From positions 89,748-153,747 of IMG/VR virus record IMGVR_UViG_3300002835_000007: a stretch of 64,000 nucleotides of DNA; one strand, 5' to 3'. Positions 1 to 14,064 of the stretch are shown one piece after another; positions within the stretch are counted from its first letter, which is position 1; each line of letters opens with the position of its first letter. The translations under genes and the position numbers were made by a program. The notes below the pieces were generated by a model. It did not search any database. It saw only the letters and a list, made by a program, of their open reading frames with translations, and was not told the origin of the DNA. Source of the stretch: a virus.

Positions 1-11
1 CATTTTTTTTG

Positions 12-81
12 GTATGGTTGCCAATGTATGGACGTGTTGGAGTCTAGTCTTCCATTCCCACGGCACGTCTAACTGATTGAC
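12..81 (-). ncRNA. Dispersed small RNA element, copy 1
   Basis: Minus-strand element. A -7 box TACATTTG lies at 86-93 (minus), so transcription would start near 80 and run left. The outer stem pairs 64-69 with 31-36 (GACGTG/CACGTC). An inner stem CCGT/ATGG is closed by the GNRA-type loop GGGA. The conserved motif TAGACTCC follows. The inner stem differs from copies 3-6 but still pairs. The -33 spacing (24 bp) is poorer than in the other copies. No protein-coding potential is evident. Confidence 0.6.
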
Positions 82-182
82 CTTACAAATGTAAGATAAA
101 AAAAATTAATATCCTAACAAAAAAAGTTTTTTTATTTAAAAAAGATTTATTATCTTTGTTGAAACAAATTAAATTAAAAGTT

Positions 183-515
183 ATGGCAGACATTTATTCA
201 GCACCGAAAGAAATTAAAGTACCTAACATTAATGGTACTATGCAGAAGTATGCAGAGGAAAGCAAACAATACATTGCAGACCTAAAACAACATATCAAAG
301 ATATGGGGTACAAAGGTAAAAACGTTGGGGAAATCGTTAGATTTGCAGTAGCAGACGGATACGCAGAGTATATGGTATTAAGTATGCGACCAATGAAACT
401 TATCCACATACCATTAGATGACGCATATGAATTCCCTTATGCACATTTGATGACAGCAAGTGAAATAACAAAGAAACTTGAAGGACAAAAAATGTTGGAA
501 CAATTATTTAAATAA
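183..515 (+). CDS. Hypothetical phage protein, 110 aa
   Basis: Function not recognised. I start at the ATG at 183 because the upstream in-frame ATG at 156 lies inside the -7 promoter box TATCTTTG (151-158). The protein is mixed alpha/beta and soluble, with no signal peptide or membrane segment; the N-terminal half is lysine- and glutamate-rich and probably helical. It is the first of the chain of small rightward genes, lying between small-RNA copy 1 and a terminator/promoter composite at 527-574. It is likely transcribed early by the host polymerase, judged only from the promoter type. Confidence 0.75.
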   Translation: MADIYSAPKEIKVPNINGTMQKYAEESKQYIADLKQHIKDMGYKGKNVGEIVRFAVADGYAEYMVLSMRPMKLIHIPLDDAYEFPYAHLMTASEITKKLEGQKMLEQLFK

Positions 516-526
516 AATAATTTAAA

Positions 527-574
527 AATAACACTATCAAAATTTGGTAGTGTTATTCTTTTATATTATCTTTA
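527..574 (+). promoter_or_regulatory. Terminator hairpin fused to -33/-7 promoter
   Basis: A 10-bp hairpin (527-536 with 548-557, AATAACACTA/TAGTGTTATT) follows the stop of the first gene. Its loop contains TTTG (543-546), which sits exactly 20 bp before TATCTTTA (567-574). Termination of one gene and the promoter of the next therefore share bases. The same architecture recurs at 11138-11181. Confidence 0.7.
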
Positions 575-603
575 CTATTATTAATCAATAAAACAACAAA
601 ACA

Positions 604-903
604 ATGGCAACAAGAACATTTAAAATTGGAGAGTATTGCAAAGGGGGTATAATTACCGTGAACGCAACAAAAACTAAAATTACCATTATTGGTAAAGAGT
701 GGGACTACTCAAAAGGTAGCAACAAAGGTAGTGACCAATCCAACGCAAAAGAATGGACACGCAGAGAGTTTAGTACAAAGTTTAGCAATCCTTATAGAGA
801 TATGTATAACTTTTTAAGCGACTTGACTACACACTATTATGCAGAGCAAATACTGGAGTGGTGCGAAACTAAAAGTGATATGAATAAACAATTATTTTGG
901 TAA
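604..903 (+). CDS. Hypothetical phage protein, 99 aa
   Basis: Not recognised. A small soluble protein, basic in its first half (TxTKIT repeats) and aromatic-rich in its second half, with no membrane segment or zinc motif. The ATG at 604 follows TATCTTTA (567-574) by 29 bases, and the leader is A-rich, as in other Bacteroidetes genes. The stop is followed at once by a promoter that carries a spacer hairpin (919-950) for the next gene, so it is probably a single-gene unit. Confidence 0.75.
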   Translation: MATRTFKIGEYCKGGIITVNATKTKITIIGKEWDYSKGSNKGSDQSNAKEWTRREFSTKFSNPYRDMYNFLSDLTTHYYAEQILEWCETKSDMNKQLFW

Positions 904-918
904 AATAATTAAAAAAGA

Positions 919-950
919 TTTGGATAAGTGAAAACTTATCCTTATCTTTA
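919..950 (+). promoter_or_regulatory. -33/-7 promoter with spacer hairpin
   Basis: TTTG at 919-922, 20 bp, TATCTTTA at 943-950. The spacer is a perfect 8-bp inverted repeat, GGATAAGT (922-929) and ACTTATCC (934-941), with loop GAAA. Confidence 0.8.
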
Positions 951-974
951 CTGAAACAAATAAAACAAAAACAA

Positions 975-1250
975 ATGGAAGCAATTTATATATCCCCAAT
1001 TGGAATGAAAGTTTATGATAATGGTGATGACATTACCATTACGGGCAACCCTAAAAAAAGCATGACTATAAAAGAGTTTGAGAGTGCTTATGACTTTGAA
1101 GAGTTTATACAAGAAAAGATAAATTGTAAAGGCATTGAATTTGATAGCGAGTTTTGTCAGTTTTTCGCTTATGCTAAAACAAAGCAAAGTGCTATTAAGT
1201 TTGTTAATCAAATAGAAAAACATTTTGAAAAAGTTAGAAAAATGTTGTAA
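975..1250 (+). CDS. Hypothetical phage protein, 91 aa
   Basis: Not recognised. A small soluble protein whose second half is lysine/glutamate-rich and probably alpha-helical (about residues 55-91); the first 30 residues look beta-rich (repeated IYI/ITITG). There is no cysteine cluster or hydrophobic segment. The start follows the -7 box at 943-950 by about 25 bases. It is one of a series of singly promoted small genes, with a spacer-hairpin promoter in front and another degenerate one just after its stop. Confidence 0.72.
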   Translation: MEAIYISPIGMKVYDNGDDITITGNPKKSMTIKEFESAYDFEEFIQEKINCKGIEFDSEFCQFFAYAKTKQSAIKFVNQIEKHFEKVRKML

Positions 1251-1255
1251 ATAAA

Positions 1256-1287
1256 TTTGGTAGTTTGAAATAAATTACTTATCTTTA
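1256..1287 (+). promoter_or_regulatory. -33/-7 promoter with wobble spacer hairpin
   Basis: TTTG 1256-1259 and TATCTTTA 1280-1287 are separated by 20 bp. The spacer arms GTAGTTT (1260-1266) and AAATTAC (1272-1278) pair over 7 positions with one G.T. The promoter and leader are nearly identical to 1547-1603. Confidence 0.7.
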
Positions 1288-1312
1288 CATAAACAAATAA
1301 AAACAATATATT

Positions 1313-1540
1313 ATGAGAAGTTTAGCAGATTTAAAACAAGCATTGTCAGAGAATAAGCAATTGGTTTGGAATGACCCCGACCCAATCAAAGGAAACGATT
1401 ACACAATCAATTTCATTGAAGACATTGATGAAGAATTTGATAATGACGATTTTAGTATGTATCCTATTCTAATTCAATACAATGATTTTGGAAGTGAGGC
1501 ACAAGTTTATCTACACGAAATTATTTTGAAAAAAGATTAA
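1313..1540 (+). CDS. Hypothetical acidic phage protein, 75 aa
   Basis: Not recognised to family. A small acidic protein with a central run of Asp/Glu (about residues 38-47) and a C-terminal half, ILIQYNDFGSEAQVYLHEI, that looks like two beta strands. There is no signal peptide. The ATG at 1313 lies about 25 bases after TATCTTTA. Its promoter-leader is a near copy of the next gene's, so the two genes should be co-expressed at similar levels. Codon use and AT content match the neighbours. Confidence 0.72.
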   Translation: MRSLADLKQALSENKQLVWNDPDPIKGNDYTINFIEDIDEEFDNDDFSMYPILIQYNDFGSEAQVYLHEIILKKD

Positions 1541-1546
1541 AATAAA

Positions 1547-1578
1547 TTTGGTAGATTGAAATAATTTACTTATCTTTA
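1547..1578 (+). promoter_or_regulatory. -33/-7 promoter with wobble spacer hairpin
   Basis: TTTG 1547-1550, 20 bp, TATCTTTA 1571-1578. The arms GTAGATT and AATTTAC pair over 7 positions with a G.T at the same place as in 1256-1287, although the arm sequence has changed. Confidence 0.7.
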
Positions 1579-1603
1579 CATAAACAAATAAAAACAATAT
1601 ATT

Positions 1604-2266
1604 ATGGGACAGTATTACAAAGCAGTATTTTTGGCAGAGAACCAAAAACCAATAGCAAGTGTATCATCTTACGACTTTGGAAGTGGTGCAAAATTAATGG
1701 AACATTCTTGGGAGAAAAATCCAATGGTAAGATTTGTTGAACGACAACTTATGGTTGCACCACAAAAACTTGTTTGGGCTGGCGACTATGCAGACGAGGA
1801 AGACCCAACAACACTTTCAAATGCTGAAATAAAATTATTAGCAGACGAAGAAAGTGAGTATTGGAATAGCAAAGTATTGAAAGAAAAAGGTGTGAACTTA
1901 TATAGTTTATCTGATACTATCGGTAGAATTACACATACTGAAAGTGTTAAAAGCAAATATGAACACGATTACAAAGGGGTTGCACCTTTGACGGCAAAGT
2001 ATTTGGTGAACCACGACAAAAAAGAATTTGTTAATAAAACCAAAACACCAAAAGATAGTGACGGATGGAAAATACACCCTTTACCATTATTGACTTGTGA
2101 GGGCAACGGCAGAGGTGGTGGTGACTTTTTTGTTAGCACCGAAAAGAAACAAGGCAACGTTGAGTTAATTGGAGTTTGGGCGAGAGATAAAATAAGTGTT
2201 GTTTCAAAAAAAGCAGAAATACCAAAAGGCTTTACTGAATTAGTATTTGACCTAATGGAAAGATAA
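1604..2266 (+). CDS. Conserved hypothetical protein of the MGQYYK type
   Basis: A 220-residue soluble protein that begins MGQYYKAVFL and carries KLMEHSW (about residues 31-37) and WAGDYADEE (about 59-67). I recognise this combination from conserved hypothetical proteins of bacteria and phages, but no activity is known to me. The C-terminal third has a Gly/Arg-rich turn (GNGRGGGDFF) followed by beta-like strands. It is the largest gene of its cluster. A good terminator follows at 2275-2303. The start follows TATCTTTA (1571-1578) by 25 bases. Confidence 0.78.
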   Translation: MGQYYKAVFLAENQKPIASVSSYDFGSGAKLMEHSWEKNPMVRFVERQLMVAPQKLVWAGDYADEEDPTTLSNAEIKLLADEESEYWNSKVLKEKGVNLYSLSDTIGRITHTESVKSKYEHDYKGVAPLTAKYLVNHDKKEFVNKTKTPKDSDGWKIHPLPLLTCEGNGRGGGDFFVSTEKKQGNVELIGVWARDKISVVSKKAEIPKGFTELVFDLMER

Positions 2267-2274
2267 AATAAAAT

Positions 2275-2303
2275 AAGGGTAAAATTAATTTTACCCTTTT
2301 TTG
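2275..2303 (+). terminator. Rho-independent terminator
   Basis: AAGGGTAAAAT (2275-2285) pairs with ATTTTACCCTT (2288-2298), followed by a T run. It closes the 1604-2266 gene. Confidence 0.85.
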
Positions 2304-2335
2304 TTTGGAATATTGAAATAAATTACTTATCTTTG
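2304..2335 (+). promoter_or_regulatory. -33/-7 promoter
   Basis: TTTG 2304-2307, 20 bp, TATCTTTG 2328-2335. The spacer inverted repeat is degenerate here. It drives the four-gene unit 2361-3469. Confidence 0.75.
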
Positions 2336-2360
2336 AAGAAACAAATAAACACTAGAAATT

Positions 2361-2603
2361 ATGGAATTTAAAGAATGGACACTTGAAGAATTTAACAGAA
2401 TGTTAGATACCAATATTTTATCAACTGATACTTTTGCAGAAAGTGTTGATAAAATAGATGAAGCAGAAGCAAGTTATTTTTATTTATCAATGAATAAAAA
2501 AGATTTGATAGATGCAATAAACGCTGAACGTATTGTCTTTGATTTATTAAAATGTAATTTAATATTTGTAAAAGAAATTTGTTTATTTATAGCAACTTAT
2601 TAA
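2361..2603 (+). CDS. Hypothetical phage protein, 80 aa
   Basis: Not recognised. An acidic, probably helical N-terminal two thirds is followed by a hydrophobic C-terminal segment (LIFVKEICLFIATY, about residues 67-80). That segment is too short and too polar to be a confident membrane helix. It is the first gene of a compact rightward unit; only one base separates its stop from the next ATG at 2605, so the two are likely translationally coupled. Transcription is from TATCTTTG at 2328-2335. Confidence 0.68.
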   Translation: MEFKEWTLEEFNRMLDTNILSTDTFAESVDKIDEAEASYFYLSMNKKDLIDAINAERIVFDLLKCNLIFVKEICLFIATY

Positions 2604-2604
2604 T

Positions 2605-2838
2605 ATGAAAAATATAGATAAAATAACACAAACGTTGGGTGGTTATCCAATAAAAGATTTAAGGTACAAAGAAAGAGATAATCTATATGTTGGATTGGTA
2701 CAAGACCCTATTTGTGGTAAACCAAATTTACACAATGGTTATATTGTGGTTGTATGGAGAAGAAATGGTAAAGTTGAACCACGTTATGGAAGTGGCAGAA
2801 CTGATTTAGAAATTGATGTTAAATTAGCAAGGGAATGA
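2605..2838 (+). CDS. Hypothetical phage protein, 77 aa
   Basis: Not recognised. A small basic protein with a beta-like core (YIVVVWRRNGKVEPRYG, about residues 46-62) that is arginine-rich enough to suggest nucleic-acid or protein binding, but no known motif is visible. It sits inside the 2361-3469 unit with no promoter of its own. Its stop overlaps the next start by four bases (ATGA), a strong sign of translational coupling. Confidence 0.7.
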   Translation: MKNIDKITQTLGGYPIKDLRYKERDNLYVGLVQDPICGKPNLHNGYIVVVWRRNGKVEPRYGSGRTDLEIDVKLARE

Positions 2839-3173
2839 AATTAGTACAATTTATTTATAACGATAATGTTATAGCACAACAAAGTGCAGATATGGAATTA
2901 GATAGAGTTGAAGAAGTTAAATGGTTATTGGCAGACGCATATAAATGTTTGCCCGATGAAATTGAAACAAGGTATGTGGGGTTTAGTTCAATTCCTATTT
3001 TATCTAATTACGATGTGAGTAGCAAAGGTATTGAACCATTTAATAGTGGTTACCCAAAACAAGCAGATGGTATACTTATGACATTGGATACTAGTGATGA
3101 TGAATTTTTGGACGCAGTACAAGGAAAAAATATTGAAAGTTTTATTAATAAACATTTGCATTTCTCATTTTAA
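2835..3173 (+). CDS. Hypothetical phage protein, 112 aa
   Basis: Not recognised. A soluble acidic protein of mixed secondary structure: an N-terminal beta strand (KLVQFIYNDNVIAQQ), a helical stretch with the EEVKWLLADAYKCLP pattern around residues 26-40, and a polar C-terminus. The start overlaps the upstream stop (ATGA). No membrane segment, cysteine pair or catalytic motif is seen. It belongs to the four-gene unit read from the promoter at 2304. Confidence 0.7.
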   Translation: MKLVQFIYNDNVIAQQSADMELDRVEEVKWLLADAYKCLPDEIETRYVGFSSIPILSNYDVSSKGIEPFNSGYPKQADGILMTLDTSDDEFLDAVQGKNIESFINKHLHFSF

Positions 3174-3190
3174 TTGCATACATTTGTTAT

Positions 3191-3469
3191 ATGGAATTTT
3201 TAAACATAAAACACAATTCAACTGAATGGGATTACATATGGAACTTTGTTGCTAATCATCCAATCAATGAGAATATTGATGAACCAATGGTTGCATTGAA
3301 TGGAGGTGAAGAGTGGCAATATATGGGTAGTTATAAACATAAGGATAAAATTATCCACGAAGTTAGACATAGGTTGCACCCAAAAACAAATGGTGTGTAT
3401 AAACTATCATTAAATGCTAGTGATACGTTTGATGACACTCAAATAGATGTGTTAGCACCTATCAAGTAA
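3191..3469 (+). CDS. Hypothetical phage protein, 92 aa
   Basis: Not recognised. A small soluble protein rich in Trp, His and Asn (WDYIWNFVANHP near the start; a HEVRHRLHP stretch near residues 57-65). No zinc-binding geometry can be assigned. It is the last gene of the 2361-3469 unit, 17 bases after the previous stop. A short perfect inverted repeat (GTACAGA/TCTGTAC, 3476-3491) follows the stop and may be its terminator or an operator. Confidence 0.7.
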   Translation: MEFLNIKHNSTEWDYIWNFVANHPINENIDEPMVALNGGEEWQYMGSYKHKDKIIHEVRHRLHPKTNGVYKLSLNASDTFDDTQIDVLAPIK

Positions 3470-3475
3470 TACCTT

Positions 3476-3491
3476 GTACAGAAATCTGTAC
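3476..3491. repeat. GTACAGA-AA-TCTGTAC inverted repeat
   Basis: A 7-bp perfect inverted repeat with a 2-base centre, just after the 3191-3469 gene. Related sequences occur at 11528-11543 and 13368-13383, each just beyond a gene end. Confidence 0.6.
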
Positions 3492-3564
3492 TCGTGTGGT
3501 GTATGGGGGTGTGTGGTGTGTGTTGGGGTGATGAAAAAAAAGTTTAAAAAAAGTTTAAGAATTA

Positions 3565-3596
3565 TTTGGAAGTTTAAAAAATAATTCATACATTTG
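3565..3596 (+). promoter_or_regulatory. -33/-7 promoter for structured RNA
   Basis: TTTG 3565-3568, 20 bp, TACATTTG 3589-3596. An 8-bp inverted repeat GAATTATT (3559-3566) / AATAATTC (3580-3587) overlaps it. No coding gene begins downstream for over 500 bases. Confidence 0.65.
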
Positions 3597-3602
3597 TAAT
3601 AA

Positions 3603-3780
3603 GAAAGAAAGTTTTTGGTAGGTATATGGTGTAGTGGATTAAGTTTCCGAGCATAACCAAAAAAACATATATATAGTGAATAGTCTAACTATTAACTTAT
3701 CGCAGATTGGGGAGTAATTACCTTGGTTGCCAATGAGTATGCGAGTGTGCTATCTTGGGTGGGATAGCACCACTATATTA
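3603..3780 (+). ncRNA. Structured non-coding RNA
   Basis: The region lacks a credible gene but carries nested stems. These are TTTTTGGT/ACCAAAAA (3612-3619 with 3656-3663); a closing stem ATATAGTG/CACTATAT (3671-3678 with 3771-3778); and, inside it, AATAGT/ACTATT (3679-3684 with 3688-3693), TTGG/CCAA (3723-3726 with 3730-3733) and an 8-bp GTGCTATC/GATAGCAC hairpin (3747-3754 with 3763-3770). A promoter sits directly upstream. The family is unknown to me. The first stem holds a tRNA-D-arm-like string, but there is no T arm. Confidence 0.6.
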
Positions 3781-3842
3781 TAAAGTATTATCGGTTGTGT
3801 GTTGTACCTTAAACACTCTCTTGTTTGTTTGTTGTTTATAGT

Positions 3843-3936
3843 TATGGCGTGACTATTCATATGAGTAGTCACACCCATAATTATTCAAGGGACAAAAGTA
3901 ATCATTATTTTTCACATAACAAAATAATTTTGTTAT
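3843..3936 (+). other. Gene-free stretch with two strong hairpins
   Basis: TATGG-GTGACTA pairs with TAGTCAC-CCATA (3843-3855 with 3866-3879). ATAACAAAAT pairs with ATTTTGTTAT (3916-3925 with 3927-3936) and is followed by T-rich sequence. These probably terminate the transcript that starts near 3603. No credible ORF occurs between 3470 and 4122. Confidence 0.5.
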
Positions 3937-3961
3937 TTATATTCATTCTAAATAATTTCAT

Positions 3962-4020
3962 AACGTTCGCATATGGGCGTGACGGAGTCTACTCTTCTAC
4001 TCTTGTAGCACGTCCACCGA
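3962..4020 (-). ncRNA. Dispersed small RNA element, copy 2
   Basis: Minus-strand copy with -7 box AATCTTTG (4026-4033) and TTG 20 bp upstream. The inner stem CTAC/GTAG has loop AAGA. The outer stem 4009-4014 with 3976-3981 has one mismatch. The 3-prime hairpin is changed to CGC/GCG. The TAGACTCC motif is intact. Confidence 0.6.
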
Positions 4021-4122
4021 CAATACAAAGATTGTAATAATATTTTTAAAAAACAAGTAAAATAAATTTTTTTATTTAAAAAGTTTTTCTTATATTTGCA
4101 AAACAATCTAAATTAACAAGCA

Positions 4123-4590
4123 ATGAAGTATAAATTCAAAGAAGTATTAGTATCAAGTTTAATTGTCTTTGGTTGCGTTTATTTATTGAAGACAACTACT
4201 ATTACTACACACTATACGAAAGTGGCTACAATCAAGCCAAAAGCACCTAAAAAGAAAAAAGTTAAACATACCAAAGTAATGGTAACTATGTATAACGCAG
4301 TTGAAGGACAATGTGATAGTGACCCATACACGACAGCAAGTATGTTAAAAATTAATCCATTTAAAGCAAGTGAACAAAAGTTTATAGCAATGAGCAGAGA
4401 TTTATTAAAACGTTGGGGTGGTAAGTTTGACTATAAGCAAAAAGTTAAATTGGTTGGTTGTGGTGATAAAGACGGAATTTATATTGTTGCCGATTGTATG
4501 AACGAAAGATTTACAAATAAAATAGACATACTTGAAACGATTGGCACACCTTTGTATAAATTTAAAAGTGCAAAAATATTTCCATTATAA
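4123..4590 (+). CDS. Membrane-anchored 3D / double-psi beta-barrel protein
   Basis: A 155-residue protein with one N-terminal hydrophobic helix (about residues 8-22), a lysine-rich linker (about 38-50), then a periplasmic domain. That domain has the pattern of 3D-domain or MltA C-terminal double-psi beta-barrels: VTMYNAV near 53, and GIYIVAD followed by NKIDI near the C-terminus with conserved aspartates. Such domains belong to lytic transglycosylases and peptidoglycan-binding proteins, so a wall-active or lysis role is plausible but inferred. Its promoter, TATATTTG (4091-4098), diverges from small-RNA copy 2. Confidence 0.65.
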   Translation: MKYKFKEVLVSSLIVFGCVYLLKTTTITTHYTKVATIKPKAPKKKKVKHTKVMVTMYNAVEGQCDSDPYTTASMLKINPFKASEQKFIAMSRDLLKRWGGKFDYKQKVKLVGCGDKDGIYIVADCMNERFTNKIDILETIGTPLYKFKSAKIFPL

Positions 4591-4646
4591 TTTGGAATTG
4601 TCAAATGTAAGTATTATCTTTGTTAAAACAAATTAAATAAAACACA

Positions 4647-4922
4647 ATGGCAAATTTTAAACCACAAGTAACGTATATGACAAGTGAAAGTCTACACGAT
4701 TACAGAGTAGAAAGATATGGTGTAAGAACTGAATACACAACAAAGAAATTCAATACTTATACTGAATTAAAGAAAGCATTAAAAGATTATATTTTGGATA
4801 ATCATATTGGTGAAGACCCAGTTTTTGTTTCACGTAGCAGACGTGGTGAATGGGGAGAATGGTTTGAGAAGTGGGAAAAAATTAATGGTAAACCTAAAAT
4901 AACTAAACAAGGGTGGCAGTAG
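4647..4922 (+). CDS. Hypothetical basic phage protein, 91 aa
   Basis: Not recognised. A soluble protein rich in Tyr, Arg and Lys, with a helical middle (TYTELKKALKDYI, about residues 38-50) and an RSRRGEWGEWFEKWEK stretch near residues 64-79 that suggests RNA, DNA or protein contact. It has no membrane segment. A -7 box (TATCTTTG, 4615-4622) lies about 25 bases before the ATG. The gene ends in a hairpin with a T run (4912-4938) that also lies downstream of small-RNA copy 3 on the other strand. Confidence 0.7.
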   Translation: MANFKPQVTYMTSESLHDYRVERYGVRTEYTTKKFNTYTELKKALKDYILDNHIGEDPVFVSRSRRGEWGEWFEKWEKINGKPKITKQGWQ

Positions 4923-4938
4923 TGTCACCTTTTTTTTA
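4912..4938 (+). terminator. Terminator of the 4647-4922 gene
   Basis: GGTG (4912-4915) pairs with CACC (4926-4929), followed by eight T residues. The stem is weak but well placed. Confidence 0.55.
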
Positions 4939-4940
4939 TG

Positions 4941-5010
4941 GTTGGTTGCCGTTCACGTATAGACGTGTCGGAGTCTACTCTTCTACTCTCGCAGCACGTA
5001 CCTTAATTGT
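4941..5010 (-). ncRNA. Dispersed small RNA element, copy 3
   Basis: Promoter on minus: TTGCATAT with TTG at 5045-5047, 20 bp, AATCTTTG at 5017-5024. The inner stem CTGC/GTAG (one G.U) has loop GAGA; the outer stem is ACGTG/CACGT. TAGACTCC is present. A second possible hairpin, CACGT-CTAT-ACGTG, competes with the outer stem. It runs against the upstream gene and diverges from the promoter of 5152. Confidence 0.7.
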
Positions 5011-5091
5011 ACAATACAAAGATTGCAATAATATTTGACATATGCAAGCAAAAAGTGAAAATAATTTTATTTTTATTTTATTACAAAATAG

Positions 5092-5121: not shown

Positions 5122-5151
5122 TAGGGTATTAATCAATTAAAATAAAACACA

Positions 5152-5811: not shown

Positions 5812-5827
5812 AAATAATTACAAAAGA

Positions 5828-5859: not shown

Positions 5860-5887
5860 TTATATACTAATTAAAACAATATAAGTT

Positions 5888-7912: not shown

Positions 7913-7921
7913 AATATAGTA

Positions 7922-8974: not shown

Positions 8975-8991
8975 AACATTTTAAAAAAAGA

Positions 8992-9023
8992 TTTGGATAA
9001 TCGAAAGATTATCCTTATCTTTG
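8992..9023 (+). promoter_or_regulatory. -33/-7 promoter with perfect spacer hairpin
   Basis: TTTG 8992-8995, 20 bp, TATCTTTG 9016-9023. GGATAATC (8995-9002) and GATTATCC (9007-9014) form a perfect 8-bp stem with loop GAAA. Confidence 0.8.
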
Positions 9024-9051
9024 TTTCACAAACAAATTAAAACAAAAAGTT

Positions 9052-9147
9052 ATGTTAGGCAAAATCGTTTATTTAGGAATCTTATTAGGAGGATTAGCAG
9101 TAATCAAATTAGTGTGTAATTATTTAGATAAAAGAAATGAAATTTAA
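9052..9147 (+). CDS. Small single-pass membrane peptide, 31 aa
   Basis: The ORF MLGKIVYLGILLGGLAVIKL... has one hydrophobic helix (about residues 5-18) and a charged C-terminus. It begins 28 bases after the -7 box of a perfect spacer-hairpin promoter, exactly like its neighbours, and it overlaps the next ORF by 11 bases; both points support it. Function unknown. Confidence 0.6.
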   Translation: MLGKIVYLGILLGGLAVIKLVCNYLDKRNEI

Positions 9148-9283
9148 AGAAATAACCTTAACCCAGCACGAAATGCAACAAGCATTAAAGAGTAGTGTTC
9201 ACAAGTCTAAAAAAGCGTTTCAACGCAAAGATAAACATAAAAAGAATTATATTAACAAGTTAATGCAAGAGGATTATGTATGA
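9137..9283 (+). CDS. Small basic protein, 48 aa
   Basis: The ORF MKFKEITLTQHEMQQALKSS... is rich in Lys, His and Arg in its second half (KSKKAFQRKDKHKKNY) and is probably helical. Its start lies inside the end of the 9052-9147 ORF, suggesting coupled translation. A strong 10-bp hairpin (9297-9328) follows. Not recognised; nucleic-acid binding would fit its charge but is only inferred. Confidence 0.55.
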   Translation: MKFKEITLTQHEMQQALKSSVHKSKKAFQRKDKHKKNYINKLMQEDYV

Positions 9284-9296
9284 TAAAGAAATAATG

Positions 9297-9328
9297 TTGA
9301 TTGAAATCTATTATGGGGTTTCAATCAA
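9297..9328 (+). terminator. Strong hairpin after the 9052-9283 genes
   Basis: TTGATTGAAA (9297-9306) pairs perfectly with TTTCAATCAA (9319-9328). There is no T run after it, so it may be an RNA-stabilising 3-prime hairpin rather than a classical terminator. Confidence 0.55.
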
Positions 9329-9375
9329 CGCAAAAAACTAAATTGTGTTTGTTTAGTGTTTTGATTATAACGAGG

Positions 9376-9407
9376 AAGTGGTTGCCGAATGGTTGCCACT
9401 TTTTTTA
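9376..9407 (+). terminator. Rho-independent terminator with GGTTGCC repeat
   Basis: AAGTGG (9376-9381) pairs with CCACTT (9396-9401), followed by a T run. The word GGTTGCC occurs twice inside and also beside most small-RNA copies. Confidence 0.7.
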
Positions 9408-9410
9408 TGC

Positions 9411-9480
9411 AGTAACGCACACACGAAACATATACACGCAACGGAGTCTACTCTTCTACTCTCGTAGCACGTCTTACTGA
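9411..9480 (-). ncRNA. Dispersed small RNA element, copy 6
   Basis: Minus promoter TTG-19 bp-TATCTTTG (9486-9493). The inner hairpin CTAC-GAGA-GTAG and TAGACTCC are kept. The 3-prime side has diverged (GTTGCGTG), so the outer stem is weaker than in copies 4 and 5. Confidence 0.62.
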
Positions 9481-9620
9481 CATAACAAAGATAGAAATAA
9501 TTTTGATATATCCAACACAAAAATGAAAATAATTTAAAAAAAATTAAATGCTAATTATAGTATGTTGTGGCAACAAGATTCAATGCTTATATTTGTAGTA
9601 TAACTTTAAAACAATATATT

Positions 9621-9860
9621 ATGGAATGCACATTAGAAAATTTAGAGAGAGTATTTAAAATCATTATTGAGCAACACGCAGACAATAATGAACACGCAGA
9701 ATTTGACGATGAAAGTGATTTAGTTGATGTAGTCAAAAGAGTAGTTGAATGGTTGGATGAAGAACCTACATTTTGTTGTCAAAATTGTGGTGGTGGGTTT
9801 ACACGTGATGAAATGGTATTTGGTGATGATGTAGATTTATGTAAAGATTGTGCAAAATAA
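9621..9860 (+). CDS. Small zinc-ribbon protein, 79 aa
   Basis: I start at 9621 because the in-frame ATG at 9567 precedes the -7 box TATATTTG (9588-9595). The product is acidic in its first 45 residues. It ends in a Cys4 knuckle, CQNC near residue 57 and LCKDC near the C-terminus, so a zinc ribbon is likely. Small zinc ribbons in phages often bind nucleic acid or RNA polymerase; the actual role is unknown. Its promoter diverges from small-RNA copy 6. Confidence 0.72.
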   Translation: MECTLENLERVFKIIIEQHADNNEHAEFDDESDLVDVVKRVVEWLDEEPTFCCQNCGGGFTRDEMVFGDDVDLCKDCAK

Positions 9861-9861
9861 A

Positions 9862-9893
9862 TTTGCATAATCAAAACATTATGCTTATCTTTG
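9862..9893 (+). promoter_or_regulatory. -33/-7 promoter with spacer hairpin
   Basis: TTTG 9862-9865, 20 bp, TATCTTTG 9886-9893. GCATAATC (9865-9872) and CATTATGC (9877-9884) pair over the outer 7 positions. Confidence 0.75.
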
Positions 9894-9920
9894 TTAAACA
9901 AACAATTTAAAACTTATATT

Positions 9921-10244
9921 ATGTCAAGCAAAAACTTAAACAAAGATTTAGAACAATTAGAAAAACAAGTTTACCACTACTTTAATGAGTTGTTGGAGAA
10001 ACAAGAAGAAATAGTAATCTTTGATGAATGTGATTTAGAACACGACACACCCGATGATTACCTTGAAATGCGTAATGATATTACGGGAAACGTGTTTGAT
10101 GTCCACCCACTAAAAGTAACCCAAAATGGAATACTTGTAGTTGAAGCAGACGGAAGTTTTGTAAGACACTTGATTAAGTTGCAAGATTTATCAAGCACAC
10201 AAGACAAAATTACCCTAATAGAATTAATGGAAAATAGTTTGTAA
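9921..10244 (+). CDS. Hypothetical protein, first of a tandem paralogue pair
   Basis: I start at 9921 (MSSKNLNK) because the ATG at 9891 overlaps the -7 box. The 107-residue protein has an N-terminal helix, then IFDE-DLE-DTPD-YLE-R followed by TGNVFDVHPLKV, and a short C-terminal helix. All of these are shared with the next gene, so the two are tandem duplicates. The activity of the family is unknown to me. Each copy has its own spacer-hairpin promoter, so the promoter was duplicated too. Confidence 0.75.
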   Translation: MSSKNLNKDLEQLEKQVYHYFNELLEKQEEIVIFDECDLEHDTPDDYLEMRNDITGNVFDVHPLKVTQNGILVVEADGSFVRHLIKLQDLSSTQDKITLIELMENSL

Positions 10245-10259
10245 AAAACTATAAAAAGA

Positions 10260-10291
10260 TTTGGATAAGTGAAAACTTATCCATATCTTTG
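10260..10291 (+). promoter_or_regulatory. -33/-7 promoter with perfect spacer hairpin
   Basis: TTTG 10260-10263, 20 bp, TATCTTTG 10284-10291. GGATAAGT (10263-10270) and ACTTATCC (10275-10282) form a perfect 8-bp stem with loop GAAA. Confidence 0.8.
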
Positions 10292-10322
10292 TTGTATAAA
10301 TAAACAATTAAAATAAACTAAA

Positions 10323-10676
10323 ATGAGAATAAGTGCTTTAAAAAGAGATATAGATGTTTTAAAAACACATATCCAAATGACATTCGAGGAAATGTTATAT
10401 CAACAAAAAGAATTTGTTATCTTTGATGAAAAAGATTTAGAAAATGACACACCCGATAATTACCTAGAAATTAGAGATAAAGAAACGGGCAACGTATTTG
10501 ATGTACACCCACTAAAAGTTCTTAAAGTTGGTAATTACTACGATATTGAAGTAGTAACGGCAGACGGAAAATTTACAAAACATTCAATTAAAATGTGGGA
10601 TTTATCAATAGAGGATAGAATTAATTTAATTGAATTAATGGACAAATGTTTGGTAGATAATGATAACGAAATATAA
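10323..10676 (+). CDS. Hypothetical protein, second of a tandem paralogue pair
   Basis: A 117-residue paralogue of the 9921-10244 product: the IFDE, DTPD-YLEIR, TGNVFDVHPLKV and LIELMD blocks are in the same order. The N-terminal helix and the central loop have diverged, which suggests an old duplication. No catalytic motif, membrane segment or zinc site is visible. The promoter arms differ from those of the first copy (GGATAAGT rather than GCATAATC) although both still pair. Confidence 0.75.
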   Translation: MRISALKRDIDVLKTHIQMTFEEMLYQQKEFVIFDEKDLENDTPDNYLEIRDKETGNVFDVHPLKVLKVGNYYDIEVVTADGKFTKHSIKMWDLSIEDRINLIELMDKCLVDNDNEI

Positions 10677-10685
10677 ACAAATAAA

Positions 10686-10717
10686 CTTGCATAAGTCAAA
10701 ACTATTCACTATCTTTA
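10686..10717 (+). promoter_or_regulatory. -33/-7 promoter, degenerate spacer hairpin
   Basis: CTTG 10686-10689, 20 bp, TATCTTTA 10710-10717. The left arm GCATAAGT is kept but the right arm no longer pairs fully. Confidence 0.65.
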
Positions 10718-10738
10718 CGGAAACAAATAATTAATACT

Positions 10739-11122
10739 ATGTATACTTTAATCGACACAAAGAAAAACAAAGAACTTGCAACATTAAATTCTAAACAAGA
10801 ATTGATTGACAAAGTTAATTTAATCGCTAATGACGATAAATTTAGAATCGCACCAATCAACACTATTGAAGATTGTTTTGAGTATATCAATCAATATACA
10901 TTGGACTATGATTTAGTCAAAGATAGTGAAGTTAATTCGTTTATCGAAACTTATGGTATTGAAGTTGATGAAAATGAATCAGACCACTATGTTGAACTAA
11001 TGATGGACGACCACAAATGTATAAAATGGAAAGGTAAAGAATATTATATAGGTGAAAATCTAAATTTAGATGAAGTCGAAGATAGTGTTTATATGATAAT
11101 AGCATATTCACTACACGTATAA
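10739..11122 (+). CDS. Hypothetical acidic phage protein, 127 aa
   Basis: Not recognised. A soluble acidic protein that begins MYTLIDTKKNKELATL, has a helical centre (IEDCFEYINQYTL) and an acidic second half (about 15 Asp/Glu between residues 63 and 95) ending in hydrophobic strands. The low pI could fit a mimic or inhibitor, but nothing specific supports it. It is followed by a terminator whose loop contains the next promoter's -33 (11138-11181). Confidence 0.72.
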   Translation: MYTLIDTKKNKELATLNSKQELIDKVNLIANDDKFRIAPINTIEDCFEYINQYTLDYDLVKDSEVNSFIETYGIEVDENESDHYVELMMDDHKCIKWKGKEYYIGENLNLDEVEDSVYMIIAYSLHV

Positions 11123-11137
11123 AATAAATTAAAATAA

Positions 11138-11181
11138 ATGGTACTATCGTTTGGTAGTACCATTTATATTTACTATCTTTA
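11138..11181 (+). promoter_or_regulatory. Terminator hairpin fused to -33/-7 promoter
   Basis: ATGGTACTA (11138-11146) pairs with TAGTACCAT (11155-11163). TTTG (11150-11153) overlaps the loop and is 20 bp from TATCTTTA (11174-11181). Same layout as 527-574. Confidence 0.7.
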
Positions 11182-11205
11182 CATAAACAAATAAACATAA
11201 ACACA

Positions 11206-11502
11206 ATGAGAACAATTACTGAAAAAGCAATCGAAAAGTTTTTAAATGCTGAAACTTTTAAAAATGGTAACACAAGTGTAGAAGTTTTGCCTAACGTAAC
11301 AATACTAAAACTATTTGGCAACGCAATCGCTTATCAATACAACGACCCCGAAAGAACCTTATCAATTACTAATTGTGGGTATGAAACGGCAACAACAAAA
11401 GAAAGGTTAAATGGTTTACCTAACGTAAAAATAAATCAAACCAAAGGTAAATGGTTTCTGAATGATGTTGAATGGGACGGAAATTTAATTGATGTAAATT
11501 AA
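11206..11502 (+). CDS. Hypothetical phage protein, 98 aa
   Basis: Not recognised. A small soluble protein with an N-terminal helix (RTITEKAIEKFLNAETF) followed by beta-like strands (VEVLPNVTILKLFGNAIAYQY) and a Trp-containing C-terminus (KWFLNDVEWDGN). No metal or nucleotide motif. It is the last rightward gene before the leftward block at 11.6-13.7 kb. The convergent junction holds a TGTAC inverted repeat (11528-11543) and the terminator of the opposing gene. Confidence 0.72.
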   Translation: MRTITEKAIEKFLNAETFKNGNTSVEVLPNVTILKLFGNAIAYQYNDPERTLSITNCGYETATTKERLNGLPNVKINQTKGKWFLNDVEWDGNLIDVN

Positions 11503-11527
11503 TAACTAAATGGTAGGTGCGACCTAT

Positions 11528-11543
11528 GTACATATTTCTGTAC
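11528..11543. repeat. GTACA-N6-TGTAC inverted repeat
   Basis: Related to 3476-3491 and 13368-13383. It is placed just after the 11206-11502 gene. Confidence 0.45.
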
Positions 11544-11643
11544 ATTGGTTGCCACCACACCCCCTAATTTAATCAATTAGTTGTTATCAAATAAAAAATA
11601 TAATGTTTGAATAATAATACTTACAATAAGTAAATTATAAGAC

Positions 11644-11676
11644 AAAAAAAAATGAGACTACTTTGGTAGTCTCATT
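11644..11676 (-). terminator. Terminator of the 11658-11918 gene
   Basis: AATGAGACTAC (11651-11661) pairs with GTAGTCTCATT (11666-11676). On the minus strand a T run follows. It overlaps the end of the coding region. Confidence 0.8.
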
Positions 11677-11918
11677 CTTGGGTTGGTATACCCAGTGAGT
11701 TCGTTAAAGCCCCACTTGATGTGAGTCTTTTCGCCATAAACGGCAGACGAACTTTTGTATGGTTGGTGAACGTAATCGTTCAACATTTCCCATTTGGTCA
11801 TTCCCATACCATAGCCGTTATAACGATATGTTCTGAAGAATGCAACGCCATCTTGACGTATACCAACTTGAACTGAACGTCCATACGTATCAGTTCCGTG
11901 AAAACAATTTGCTTCCAT
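11658..11918 (-). CDS. Hypothetical phage protein, 86 aa
   Basis: Leftward. I start at 11918 (MEANCFHGTD...) because the in-frame ATG at 11978 lies in the -7 box TATCTTTG on the minus strand. The remaining product is a soluble, aromatic- and glycine-rich protein (FFRTYRYNGYGMGMTKWEM) with no recognisable domain. The apparent hydrophobic N-terminus of the longer reading comes from the untranslated leader. Its terminator overlaps its last codons. Confidence 0.65.
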   Translation of the reverse strand: MEANCFHGTDTYGRSVQVGIRQDGVAFFRTYRYNGYGMGMTKWEMLNDYVHQPYKSSSAVYGEKTHIKWGFNELTGYTNPRMRLPK

Positions 11919-11999
11919 AACAAAAAGAAAAAAAATAAGTAAGAAAAAGAACTTTTGTCCCTCATTTGGACGATACAAAGATAAACATAATTTTTAAAT

Positions 12000-12240
12000 A
12001 ACCAAACATTTTTTAATCTTTTTTTATTTTTTTTTATTCCTATCTAATCTTATTTATAACATTAATCTTTATACTATTCTTATTCTTTTTTTGCTTGTAT
12101 TGTTGCTTGTAATAAACTTTAAATACTAAACCAATACATAATACCAAAACAACTTTAAAACGTCTTAAAACGAATTAAAATAAGAGCAAAAAATAATTTA
12201 AAAATAATTCACTTTTTTCTTGCATATCTAAAATCTAATT
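12000..12240. other. AT-rich gene-free stretch with promoters
   Basis: No supported gene. It contains the leftward promoter of 11658-11918 (TTTG, 19 bp, TATCTTTG on minus near 11977-11984) and a 21-base sequence (12160-12180) that recurs inverted at 14773-14793 with one mismatch. Otherwise it is homopolymer-rich. Confidence 0.5.
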
Positions 12241-12255
12241 ACGATATTTGTATTG

Positions 12256-12328
12256 TCAATGATTGATAATCGAGACAAGTTGCTAACCAAAGCAAAAGAC
12301 TAGACTCCGACACGTCTATACTTTTTTA
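12256..12328 (+). ncRNA. Dispersed small RNA element, copy 7 (variant, plus strand)
   Basis: Promoter TTGCATAT, 20 bp, GATATTTG (12243-12250). The leader is TCAATGATT. The 5-prime hairpin is GATT-GAT-AATC; a second hairpin is TTGCT/AAGCAA. Then come TAGACTCC and CACGTC, and a six-T run ends it near 12328. It points toward the end of the leftward 12379-12798 gene. Confidence 0.65.
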
Positions 12329-12340
12329 ACGTATGCCAAT

Positions 12341-12367
12341 AAAAAAAAGAGTTCATTTAATGAACCC
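12341..12367 (-). terminator. Terminator of the 12379-12798 gene
   Basis: GAGTTCAT and ATGAACCC pair around TTA, with eight T on the minus strand. Confidence 0.8.
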
Positions 12368-12378
12368 TTTTCAGTCGG

Positions 12379-12798
12379 TTAAAGACTTGCACAAGTCGGA
12401 CCTAACCCACGTTCGATGGATTGTGCGTCCGTTAACGTGCGTCCACAACGTATGCAATTGCCCGTATGCATAACTTGAACCTTCTCATCCAACAAGTCGA
12501 ACTTGCTTTGTTCAACCCTTTCAAGCACCCAACAAATTGCTGTTGCCGATGGCGAGTTAACCACTTGCCCTTTTTGGTAAATCTTACCCTTGAAATAAGA
12601 CCCCAAACGAACGAATTTTTGGTACTCTTGTTCAACGCTAATATGCGTGTACCAATTGCCCTTAAATTTAGAACGAGAGATAGCATACGTGTAGTCTTTG
12701 CCCGTAGCAATAGACTTAATAGTGAAATCAGAACCACTATTGTTTTTTTCAGCCTTGATAACTGAAAAAAGAGCCGAAGATGAAATAATGTGTGACAT
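12379..12798 (-). CDS. Hypothetical protein with C-terminal Cys4-type zinc tail
   Basis: A 139-residue leftward gene. The first 100 residues are mixed alpha/beta without known motifs (a KDYTYAISRSKFKGNWYTHISV strand region near 33-55). The C-terminus has the pattern CxxCGRxLTDxxSIExGLGPxC, which I recognise as the short zinc-binding signature of DUF6011-like proteins. Binding partners are unknown. The promoter TATCTTTG lies near 12827-12834 on minus, with an upstream element shared with the 13037-13255 gene. Confidence 0.75.
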   Translation of the reverse strand: MSHIISSSALFSVIKAEKNNSGSDFTIKSIATGKDYTYAISRSKFKGNWYTHISVEQEYQKFVRLGSYFKGKIYQKGQVVNSPSATAICWVLERVEQSKFDLLDEKVQVMHTGNCIRCGRTLTDAQSIERGLGPTCASL

Positions 12799-12848
12799 AA
12801 GGAAAAAATTTAAATGAATAACTTATTACAAAGATAATACTTTTTTTC

Positions 12849-12872
12849 ATTCCCACAATACCTTAACGAAAA
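12849..12872 (-). promoter_or_regulatory. Extended -33 element, copy A
   Basis: On the minus strand a GTTARGGTATTGTGGGAAT-type block places TTG 19 bp before TATCTTTG. The block recurs at 13300-13323 with two differences, so the 12379 and 13037 genes look co-regulated. Confidence 0.65.
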
Positions 12873-12936
12873 AAAAAATAAAATTATTTTTAATAATTGT
12901 TTGCATATATCATTTCTATTATCTATCTTTGTTTTG

Positions 12937-13010
12937 TCAATGATTGATAGTCGAGACAAGTCGCTAAGCAAAGTGAGAGAGTAGACTCCGACACGTCCAT
13001 ACGTGAACGA
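12937..13010 (+). ncRNA. Dispersed small RNA element, copy 8 (variant, plus strand)
   Basis: Promoter TTGCATAT, 20 bp, TATCTTTG (12924-12931). The hairpin GATT-GAT-AGTC keeps pairing with one G.T relative to copy 7; a second hairpin CGCT/AGTG also changes in step. It has TAGACTCC and CACGT-CCAT-ACGTG. Confidence 0.68.
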
Positions 13011-13022
13011 ACTATACTAAAT

Positions 13023-13046
13023 AAAAAAGGGGATTTTTAAACCCCC
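13023..13046 (-). terminator. Terminator of the 13037-13255 gene
   Basis: GGGG and CCCC arms with six T on the minus strand. It overlaps the stop codon. Confidence 0.65.
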
Positions 13047-13255
13047 AATTTTTCAAAGATAGGACGACTAATTTCGTTTCTAATAAGCATAGGTATTAGA
13101 TACTCAAATAAGTCGTCAGATTCAATCTTTAGACGTTCATACTTAACTTTTGGTATGTCAGCCCTAACGTCATTTCCAACTTGTTCGGCAAAGAATTTTT
13201 CACCTTCCCTAACTAATAGACAATTTCCAACTTGTCTTACAACTACACGTAACAT
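13037..13255 (-). CDS. Hypothetical phage protein, 72 aa
   Basis: Not recognised. A small leftward gene; the product is mixed charged, beta-like at the N-terminus (LRVVVRQVGNCLLVREGEKFF) and helical at the C-terminus (DDLFEYLIPMLIRNEISRPIFEKLG). It has no zinc or membrane motif. The promoter TATCTTTG (minus, 13280-13287) and its upstream element match those of the neighbouring 12379-12798 gene. Confidence 0.7.
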   Translation of the reverse strand: MLRVVVRQVGNCLLVREGEKFFAEQVGNDVRADIPKVKYERLKIESDDLFEYLIPMLIRNEISRPIFEKLGV

Positions 13256-13299
13256 AAAGAACGATTTTGAATTACCCTACAAAGATAACATTAATTTTG

Positions 13300-13323
13300 A
13301 TTCCCACAATACCCTAACCAAAA
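13300..13323 (-). promoter_or_regulatory. Extended -33 element, copy B
   Basis: Second copy of the element at 12849-12872. On the minus strand TTG is followed after 19 bp by TATCTTTG. Confidence 0.65.
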
Positions 13324-13340
13324 AAAAATTAATATAAACG

Positions 13341-13371
13341 AAAAAAGTCCATAAGGTATAACCCTATGGAC
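13341..13371 (-). terminator. Terminator of the 13386-13709 gene
   Basis: GTCCATA (13347-13353) pairs with TATGGAC (13365-13371), with six T on the minus strand. A GGACAGA/TCTGTAC near-palindrome (13368-13383) overlaps it. Confidence 0.75.
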
Positions 13372-13385
13372 AGATTTCTGTACAT

Positions 13386-13709
13386 TTAGTACTCAACTTC
13401 AACGTCACGTGCTTGTGCGTGCACGTATTCCAAGAACTTGTCGTCATTCAAGACGATAGGTTCGTGCCACACGATTTCGTGTTCGGTATACGTATACCGA
13501 TACCCCTCGTTAGACTCGTCTTGTAGCAGACGTTTGAAAGCGTTTATTGAGCGTTCCTCGTCATACATAAGGTAATCAACATTAAGGTTGACTTGAAAGA
13601 TTTTACCACCTTTCTTTTTCCAATGTTGTGGACATTCCCCTTGACCATCCCACGTGTGAGCAGCATAGTTTTCCTCAACTTGTGCGTAAATGTTTACCAA
13701 TGTTTTCAT
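13386..13709 (-). CDS. Hypothetical phage protein, 107 aa
   Basis: Not recognised. A soluble leftward gene starting MKTLVNIYAQVEENYAAHTWDG. It contains a WDGQGECPQHWKKKGGKIFQV stretch near residues 20-40 and an acidic/aromatic C-terminal half with YRYTYTEHEIVWHEPIVL. No catalytic motif is assigned. Its transcript has an unusually long leader: the -7 box TATCTTTG on minus is near 13791-13798, about 85 bases before the ATG. Confidence 0.7.
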   Translation of the reverse strand: MKTLVNIYAQVEENYAAHTWDGQGECPQHWKKKGGKIFQVNLNVDYLMYDEERSINAFKRLLQDESNEGYRYTYTEHEIVWHEPIVLNDDKFLEYVHAQARDVEVEY

Positions 13710-13898
13710 AACAAAAAAGTATTAAAAAATAAATAAAAAAAGAACTAACGCCCAACCGAAGTACATATCATATCCTCAATTGAACAATACAAAGATAGGG
13801 ATAAATTTTAAATAACCAAAACTTTTTTCACTTTTTTTTTTCAAAGTTATTAACACTAAATTGTTAATAACTTTTTTTAAAAAAAAACTTGCATATTA

Positions 13899-13958
13899 AA
13901 AAAATAAAACCCAGGTTGGAGTCTACTCTTCCATTCCCACGGCACGTACCTTAATTGT
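13899..13958 (-). ncRNA. Dispersed small RNA element, copy 9 (truncated)
   Basis: Minus promoter TTGCATAT, 20 bp, TATATTTG (13965-13972). The inner stem CCGT-GGGA-ATGG matches copy 1; TAGACTCC is kept. The 3-prime CACGTC half is lost and replaced by a T-rich stretch. It diverges from the promoter of 14127. Confidence 0.6.
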
Positions 13959-14064
13959 ACACTACAAATATAGGAAGGATAAATTTAATATGCAAGCAAA
14001 AGTTATTAACAATTCAATTTTTTTTATTGTTAATAACTTTGAGTGAATTATTTTTAATTTTTTG

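Follow-up and report, generated by a model that had tools for sequence, protein, structure and literature searches.

A structured small RNA element with a constant motif that appears to recur in viruses of Bacteroidota

Sponge RNAs of the CsrB type titrate an RNA-binding protein by means of a short motif repeated beside or in hairpins. A similar logic is tentatively proposed here for a small RNA element present in nine copies in a 64,000-nucleotide stretch of viral DNA (positions 89,748 to 153,747 of IMG/VR record IMGVR_UViG_3300002835_000007, hereafter the window), although its copies are mostly separate genes and its motif and presumed partner are unlike those of CsrB. The multiplicity resembles that of LhrC1-5 of Listeria monocytogenes, described in the accessible part of its paper as five copies of one small RNA with redundant CU-rich target-binding sites (PMC4132741). 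LhrC1-5 are bacterial, whereas the RNA considered here is borne by phages of very different size and has another motif, within a module formed by a hairpin (P2) and GURGACUCC; no sequence relation between the two is claimed. Small RNAs (sRNAs) encoded in phage genomes were reviewed in 2025 (PMC12197685); the strings Bacteroid and Flavobacter are absent from the main text of the review, and the two passages on copy number in the excerpts available deal with DicF copies of E. coli and with a plasmid. The Racrs (RNA anti-CRISPRs) are stand-alone phage RNAs as well; according to the available part of PMC10651486 they imitate repeats of CRISPR (clustered regularly interspaced short palindromic repeats), while no motif-bearing array was found for the present RNA among 395 host-class genomes.

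A first, sequence-only reading of the window had named no described RNA family like this one, and the searches gave none either. Over the 64 kb no match to Rfam 15 (4227 families) reached the gathering score, and permissive scans of 3900-7000 and of five loci gave matches below that score only. A match to MicX (33.3 bits against a gathering score of 75) spans copy 3 on the opposite strand. Text matches in PubMed Central (PMC) to GAGUAGACUCC, GAGTAGACTCC, UAGACUCCGAC and UAGACUCCAAC were unrelated as judged by title and abstract, subscription journals and preprints lying outside this search, and the PMC literature on phage and Bacteroidota RNAs held nothing similar in titles and the beginnings of abstracts. 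At that depth of source, host takeover by an RNA sponge has no precedent in the PMC literature searched. The paper on Tenacibaculum phage Larrie, one of the carriers, reports in its accessible part that no transfer RNA was found and does not name a small RNA of the phage there.

Anatomy of the element and covariation of P2

The element is composed, from 5' to 3', of a putative promoter, a leader, GGG, the hairpin P2 (11-26 bases), RAGAG, UAGACUCC, RAC and a tail. In the window GGG is replaced by GUG in seven copies and by AAG in two. All nine copies lie where the sequence-only reading had placed them and contain GAnTAGACTCC exactly; seven have it on the minus strand and two on the plus strand. 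These nine sites are all that the 64 kb contain, and they fall within 39-13928, with none beyond 13928. The copies are as follows (bit scores from the covariance model R1 described below).

17-72, minus strand: RNA copy 1, P2 CCGU-GGGA-AUGG, TAGACTCC at 39-46, 21.9 bits
3962-4017, minus strand: RNA copy 2, P2 CUAC-AAGA-GUAG, 23.0 bits
4948-5003, minus strand: RNA copy 3, P2 CUGC-GAGA-GUAG
6793-6848, minus strand: RNA copy 4, P2 CUAC-GAGA-GUAG, terminator-like stem at 6778-6760 in its own direction
8151-8206, minus strand: RNA copy 5, P2 CUGC-GAGA-GUAG
9421-9476, minus strand: RNA copy 6, P2 CUAC-GAGA-GUAG, divergent tail GUUGCGUGUAUAUG
12271-12330, plus strand: RNA copy 7, P2 UUGCU-AACCAA-AGCAA
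12952-13011, plus strand: RNA copy 8, P2 UCGCU-AAGCAA-AGUGA
13896-13951, minus strand: RNA copy 9, P2 CCGU-GGGA-AUGG, tail AACCUGGGUUUUAUUUUUUU

P2 varies in sequence, length and pairs, and the adjoining core RAGAGUAGACUCCRAC is nearly invariant. The sequence-only reading had claimed a covarying inner stem and proposed a covariance test of it; the test was run, and its outcome spoke for the stem. Alignment A1, from which model R1 was derived, consists of 17 sequences with hairpins of equal length and was made gap-free and without the use of structure. Here P2 is paired in 92.2% of cells, two-sided changes occur in all six pairs, and the covariation score of 0.833 compares with 0.381 for shuffled and at most 0.173 for slid partners. 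Among 104 distinct rows fitted to R1 the pairing amounts to 93.3% of cells, five of six pairs show two-sided changes, and the score is 0.437 (0.208 shuffled, at most 0.086 slid). The cell counts and the covariation score were reached by no shuffle in either alignment. The element thus belongs to a structured RNA family: the changes in P2 are compensatory, and this is lost on sliding the partners. As to the sequences used, L091, L113 and L116 were among the 59 sources searched with R1 (the window and 58 loci) and hence in alignment A2, and L012, L029, L043, L058 and L066, near-identical to others, were left out of the R1 search over loci.

The two other structural proposals of the sequence-only reading fared worse. 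The outer stem GACGTG/CACGTC, paired in 53.9% of the cells of A1 against 92.2% for the inner stem, was rejected. Several copies have it only in part: CACGTC is absent from those at 9411 and 13899 and reads CACGCC in that at 3962; copies 12256 and 12937 have GACAAG where GACGTG would be expected. Among 86 rows no column pair between flank and tail exceeded expectation by more than about 0.1. Nor is the loop of the inner stem always of four bases, since the hairpin of the copies at 12271 and 12952, 16 bases long, closes on a 6-base loop.

P2 was defined in each sequence as the best hairpin, chosen by a script, ending five bases before the core; the resulting 91 hairpins include second-motif units. 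The outermost pair is U-A in 41 and C-G in 43 of them (together 84 of 91), U-G in five and G-C in two. Many loops are of the GNRA type (GAGA 22, GGGA 5, GAAA 5). The leader can often be folded as well (GUAC..GUAC, GUUG..CAAC, GUC..GAC). This optional 5' hairpin is present in many copies, yet only modestly above chance: the mean longest stem is 4.64 in 74 leaders and 4.19 after shuffling (200 rounds, highest 4.47).

The constancy of the core, which lies outside P2, was examined by scanning 15 phage sequences with AGAGTAGACTCC. This gave 78 exact sites (64 with a promoter-like box), 11 with one mismatch and 24 with two, whereas the reversed word gave none, two and 21, respectively. Among the variants with a promoter-like box are GTGGACTCC, AGGGTAGACTCC and GAAGTAGACTCC, and AGNGURGACUCC is therefore the more accurate notation for the core; with mismatches allowed it is kept save for a few substitutions. 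On both strands of nine phage sequences TAGACTCC occurs at 67 sites against 9.1 expected, and site-by-site inspection places 63 of them in elements (one, phiST 77357, tentatively) and four outside.

Downstream of the core the elements have tail A (RACACGUCYAUAYG), tail B (RACCUACCUUAUAUUUUUUU) or, in L010, L018 and L067, a second hairpin followed by a second UAGACUCC; this second unit lacks RAGAG and GGG. A T6 run within 40 nucleotides (nt) downstream is found in 31 of 91 elements and at 6 of 87 control places; by tail, it follows 24 of 43 of type B and 5 of 34 of type A. Two further structures were considered and dropped. The mini-hairpin GAG-UAGA-CUC predicted by RNAalifold is invariant in 17 sequences, which gives no evidence for it, and would be disrupted in GAC variants. 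Pairing of the near-palindrome GAGUAGACUC of one copy with that of another is disfavoured by the second motif unit, which has no GAG.

Upstream boxes, genomic setting and distribution

Each window copy has a -7 box on its own strand, downstream of TTG (TTAG in one), in agreement with the promoters claimed by the sequence-only reading. TTG lies 22-23 nt before the start of the -7 box in eight of the nine copies; with TTAG in the ninth included the range is 22-24 nt. The box is TAnnTTTG exactly in five and has one mismatch, at the first T, in four. The -33 sequence described as predominant, TTGCATAT, holds for four of nine copies only; the other five have TTGCATAA, TTGCACAA, TTGGATAT, TTGTTTTT and TTAGGATA.

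86-93, minus strand: -7 box of copy 1, TACATTTG, exact, TTAGGATA 24 nt upstream
4026-4033, minus strand: -7 box of copy 2, AATCTTTG, one mismatch
5017-5024, minus strand: -7 box of copy 3, AATCTTTG, one mismatch, TTGCATAT 23 nt upstream
6862-6869, minus strand: -7 box of copy 4, GATATTTG, one mismatch, TTGCATAA upstream
8220-8227, minus strand: -7 box of copy 5, TATCTTTG, exact, TTGCACAA upstream
9486-9493, minus strand: -7 box of copy 6, TATCTTTG, exact, TTGGATAT upstream
12243-12250, plus strand: -7 box of copy 7, GATATTTG, one mismatch, TTGCATAT upstream
12924-12931, plus strand: -7 box of copy 8, TATCTTTG, exact, TTGCATAT upstream
13965-13972, minus strand: -7 box of copy 9, TATATTTG, exact, TTGCATAT upstream

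The consensus of the Bacteroidota sigma-ABfr promoter is -33 TTTG / -7 TANNTTTG in the available part of PMC6847099, and the window copies, with TANNTTTG and a TTG-type box upstream, match this promoter type by sequence. In nine phage sequences TAnnTTTG is found 20-75 nt upstream of 48 of 74 T[AG]GACTCC sites, compared with 553 of 9000 random positions. Other motifs take its place in some lineages: in phage G018 (L177, L178, L004) the RNA stands behind a shared TTGTAACTTTTT..ATCGTTATA in five of five cases, and in L093, L104, L118 and L119 behind GCTATAC in four of four. These are perhaps phage-specific promoters or promoters of other hosts.

In some gene promoters of the window phage the spacer that separates the -33 box from the -7 box contains an inverted repeat centred on 4 bases (GGATAAGTgaaaACTTATCC, GCATAATCaaaaGATTATGC, GGAATTGTaaaaACAATTCC). 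Such palindromes at 922-941, 6323-6342, 7356-7375, 7626-7645, 8995-9014 and 10262-10283 differ in sequence with the palindrome kept. Arms of at least 7 occur in 9 of 69 promoters of the window phage, 6/70 of G006, 13/69 of G015, 5/39 of G001 and 6/31 of G004, against 0.5-2% with shuffled spacers; they are rare or missing elsewhere (G008 1/39, G011 0/40, Larrie 0/24, phiST 0/6). The palindrome also precedes some of the RNAs (L008, L027) and is possibly an operator or a cruciform signal.

According to a simple list of open reading frames (ORFs) the copies lie between genes, or the only ORFs that they overlap are of 40-78 amino acids; a site inside a 722-amino-acid ORF of Larrie is not an element. 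That seven copies point against the upstream gene cluster is correct for the window and does not extend to the relatives, where the next downstream ORF is on the same strand for some copies and on the opposite strand for others. Since either orientation occurs, an antisense or leader role for the neighbour is not general. Terminator-like stems of convergent genes lie near copies at 4909-4932 and 8088-8116 (plus) and at 12372-12344 and 13046-13029 (minus).

The source record is 205,931 bases long and belongs to a T4-like phage, with a T4-type portal (PF07230) at window 44008-46038 and a major capsid protein (PF07068) at 49557-51383; a ClpB-like ATPase, thymidylate synthase and terminase are also encoded. 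R1 run over pieces of the whole record gave 11 copies at E<=0.01; copies 1 and 2 of the window, the weakest there (21.9 and 23.0 bits), bring the count to 13. Of the record's 14 exact TAGACTCC sites, 13 fall in these copies. Four lie upstream of the window (record positions ~78,006, 79,519 with 25.3 bits, 80,725 and 85,280), and all 13 fall within the 26 kb between 78,006 and 103,698, a single stretch of small genes that are presumably early; neither R1 nor the exact TAGACTCC scan found copies in the remaining 180 kb.

In the viral collection an exact pattern scan returned 81 stretches, 28 of which were taken as elements and the rest as chance or coding; a second scan with the other tail returned 40, of which 36 were taken. 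L092, L113 and L116 (one coding stretch) were rejected, and L091 is doubtful. Over the window and 58 loci, near-identical phages included, R1 gave 121 matches at E<=0.05. The same model gave seven matches, at most 26.6 bits and the best in coding DNA, over 59 loci with the same motif that had been judged non-elements. Of the 121 rows, 104 (at least 27.8 bits) stand on score alone and the weaker ones need context.

Among 20 whole virus records, picked because they bear the motif and including one (G003) of nearly the same phage as the window, 19 were matched at E<=0.001, with 1-13 copies each and 105 in all. The cultured phage Larrie has four places (39.5, 25.3, 17.9 and 17.9 bits); one stands on score, and the three weaker draw support from the core, the hairpin and the box upstream. 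A copy of 26.2 bits is found in each of the Cellulophaga phages phiST and phi13:1, which belong to one species, with a seven-pair P2 UCGAAUC/GGUUUGA behind TATCTTTA; these matches are weaker, yet convincing. A second phiST copy (77357), with no TATCTTTA-type box, is tentative. One copy (39.9 bits) was found in an uncultured phage of 634,780 bases. Nine of 13 named records (PTm1, LR756502, TCUEAP1, cr112_1, Barc2635, phi40:1, phi14:2, phi12:2 and phi10:1) gave no R1 match at 0.05 under strict filters. BLAST searches of the phage collection with window stretches and elements found their sole real element in Larrie, and rows from Erwinia, Klebsiella, Escherichia, Citrobacter and Acinetobacter were taken as chance; in one of these searches the matches listed (30 of 53 records) are confined to query positions 1-48, which hold the promoter and leader. 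Both large and mid-sized Bacteroidota viruses appear to carry this small RNA, often many times per genome.

Under strict filters, and in a set that contained no positive genome, no copy was found in 295 bacterial genomes belonging to the same class as a Flavobacteriales metagenome-assembled genome (MAG); from this absence the RNA was probably not borrowed from the host. Among bacterial records clear copies are confined to one, a contig of 6.7 kb from a Bacteroidales MAG (L124, three matches), which is most simply phage DNA. R1, run at 0.05 on L205 and 30 host loci, matched L205 (39.9 bits) and, of the host loci, L217 alone (20.3 bits).

Possible functions of the RNA

The reading favoured here, though put somewhat below an even chance, is that the elements are phage-borne, stand-alone, trans-acting small RNAs whose GURGACUCC binds and titrates a conserved host factor. 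Host-sigma promoters, or in some lineages the other upstream motifs, would drive plentiful synthesis of the RNAs early in infection, and P2 would serve as a scaffold displaying the motif. The latter would bind one partner conserved among Bacteroidota hosts, a protein or ribonucleoprotein being likelier than a messenger RNA (mRNA). Many copies could jointly sequester this partner, with copy number setting the dose and some RNAs bearing the motif twice. What the comparison shows is a conserved, structured, multi-copy phage element with promoter-like boxes; transcription, action in trans and the working role of the motif are inferred. A constant motif among very different phages suggests a constant target, and the either-way orientation together with the differing upstream motifs of relatives suggests that the product, and not a cis role, is conserved. 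The more specific form of the proposal, an RNA sponge in which up to 13 separately promoted genes flood the cell with GURGACUCC and titrate a conserved RNA-binding factor of Bacteroidota or a ribosomal component, is possible and rather doubtful.

Several points weigh against the titration reading. It is drawn from copy number and the invariant motif, both of which would also fit sibling base-pairing sRNAs, and the changes at two motif positions (GURGACUCCR) are purine-only, as pairing with a fixed U would give. The motif was also the search key, relaxed only to three mismatches, so that its invariance is partly ascertained. In the window one copy of nine (copy 4, 6778-6760) has a listed terminator-like stem in its own direction; the stems adjoining copies 3, 5, 7 and 8 are listed for the convergent strand only. 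The copies at window 17-72 and 3962-4017, three of the four in Larrie and those of phiST and phi13:1 score below the best false locus (26.6 bits) and hence rest on hairpin, core and upstream box. Two of five covariation measures are not clearly above shuffles: the number of pairs with two-sided changes was reached by 25 of 500 shuffles for A1 and 421 of 500 for the 104 rows; for the number of pair types the corresponding figures are 500 and 182 of 500. Finally, the 295-genome search scored 18 candidates per genome in the listed rows, and in the absence of a positive genome its empty result shows nothing.

The next best explanation, possible but judged improbable on balance, is that the copies are sibling base-pairing sRNAs, the motif being a seed of 8-11 base pairs (bp) on host mRNAs or another host RNA that is thereby repressed or occupied, as happens with multicopy sRNAs in other bacteria. 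The design, a hairpin followed by a conserved C-rich stretch, in several copies and with the motif duplicated in some RNAs, would suit this, as would the purine-only variation, and the accessible part of PMC4132741 gives multicopy LhrC of Listeria redundant CU-rich sites. The expected excess of complementary sites was not observed. The complementary 13-mer has 31 exact matches in 28 of 395 host-class genomes, against about 65 for the reversed control, and the 14-mer complement, two mismatches allowed, falls short of its reversed control in 34 of 40 genomes, exceeds it in five and equals it in one. Nor is the complement in excess in nine phage sequences; the reversed control words are below expectation there too, so no avoidance is claimed. 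These results disfavour long pairing, and seeds of 7-8 nt are outside their reach. An 11-bp match with G-U pairs to the GGAGTCTGC stretch of 16S ribosomal RNA, which we take to lie in helix 41, is present in two of three genomes and absent from the third, with permutation values from 0 to 0.9 by genome and core version; it is a weak lead. Outside that stretch the 23S, transfer-messenger RNA and RNase P loci, flanks included, gave permutation values of at least 0.03 (60 permutations), and the flank of two of three 23S loci gave the 16S stretch again. An anti-Shine-Dalgarno role is unlikely, because Bacteroidetes are without Shine-Dalgarno sequences according to the available part of PMC6847099. 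With no excess of complementary sites and a weak 16S match, binding and titration are favoured over seed pairing, which comes second.

It is improbable that the RNA is a counter-defence mimic which imitates or occupies an RNA-recognising host defence, as a CRISPR-repeat mimic or an antitoxin RNA would. Its multiple copies, their location in regions of small genes and the lack of any seen in host genomes under strict filters would fit, and solitary CRISPR-repeat mimics (Racrs) are known in phages from the accessible text of PMC10651486. Against this, none of the 395 host-class genomes has more than two GAGTRGACTCCRA matches, and hence no CRISPR array bearing the motif was seen among them; Cas and toxin genes were not searched for. 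A presumed resemblance between a Cas12a repeat and one copy, read on the plus strand, was dropped, since the stem changes in other copies and the promoter is on the other strand.

A small self-cleaving ribozyme or an aptamer-type RNA, whose core would bind a metal or metabolite, is still less probable: the strongly conserved core beside a variable stem whose loops are often GNRA could suggest it, but only one stem is consistently formed and the second motif unit keeps UAGACUCC without RAGAG or GGG. Least probable of all is a cis element in place of a separate RNA (terminator, insulator, antisense to a neighbouring 3' end or replication signal), for which seven window copies running against upstream genes and several adjoining convergent-gene terminator-like stems would speak, and against which stand the strand-specific promoter boxes at short distance, the compensatory changes in P2 and the either-way orientation in relatives.

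Finding such a partner would reveal which RNA-binding factor or process of the host these phages have to bring under control. Expression, partner and effect are directly testable, as a covariance model exists and the family has members that are cultured along with a host (Tenacibaculum phage Larrie; Cellulophaga baltica with phiST or phi13:1). Gene sharing among 15 sets, with few proteins annotated, brought out no RNA-binding partner protein; the most shared protein, in 10 of 15 sets, has a HEIAH motif, from which we take it to be SprT-like.

Other features of the window and of a related record

Window 3480-3960 and 7915-8110 are intergenic, with few or no convincing ORFs, and may hold further non-coding RNAs. 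A short direct repeat with a T-rich/A-rich unit and GGAAAAAGTTGCA(A/G)CAAAAAAA is found at 14990-15110. The thymidylate synthase ORF (34915-36192, 425 amino acids) aligns over its full length to the 281 positions of a PHROG profile and may hold an insertion. In record G001 (70730-76425) a ClpB-like protein seems to be split over the ORFs 70730-71548 and 75193-76425: the first departs after GEPGVGK and the second joins with GILSHN before the second ATPase part. The interrupting sequence seems, as we presume, intein-like.

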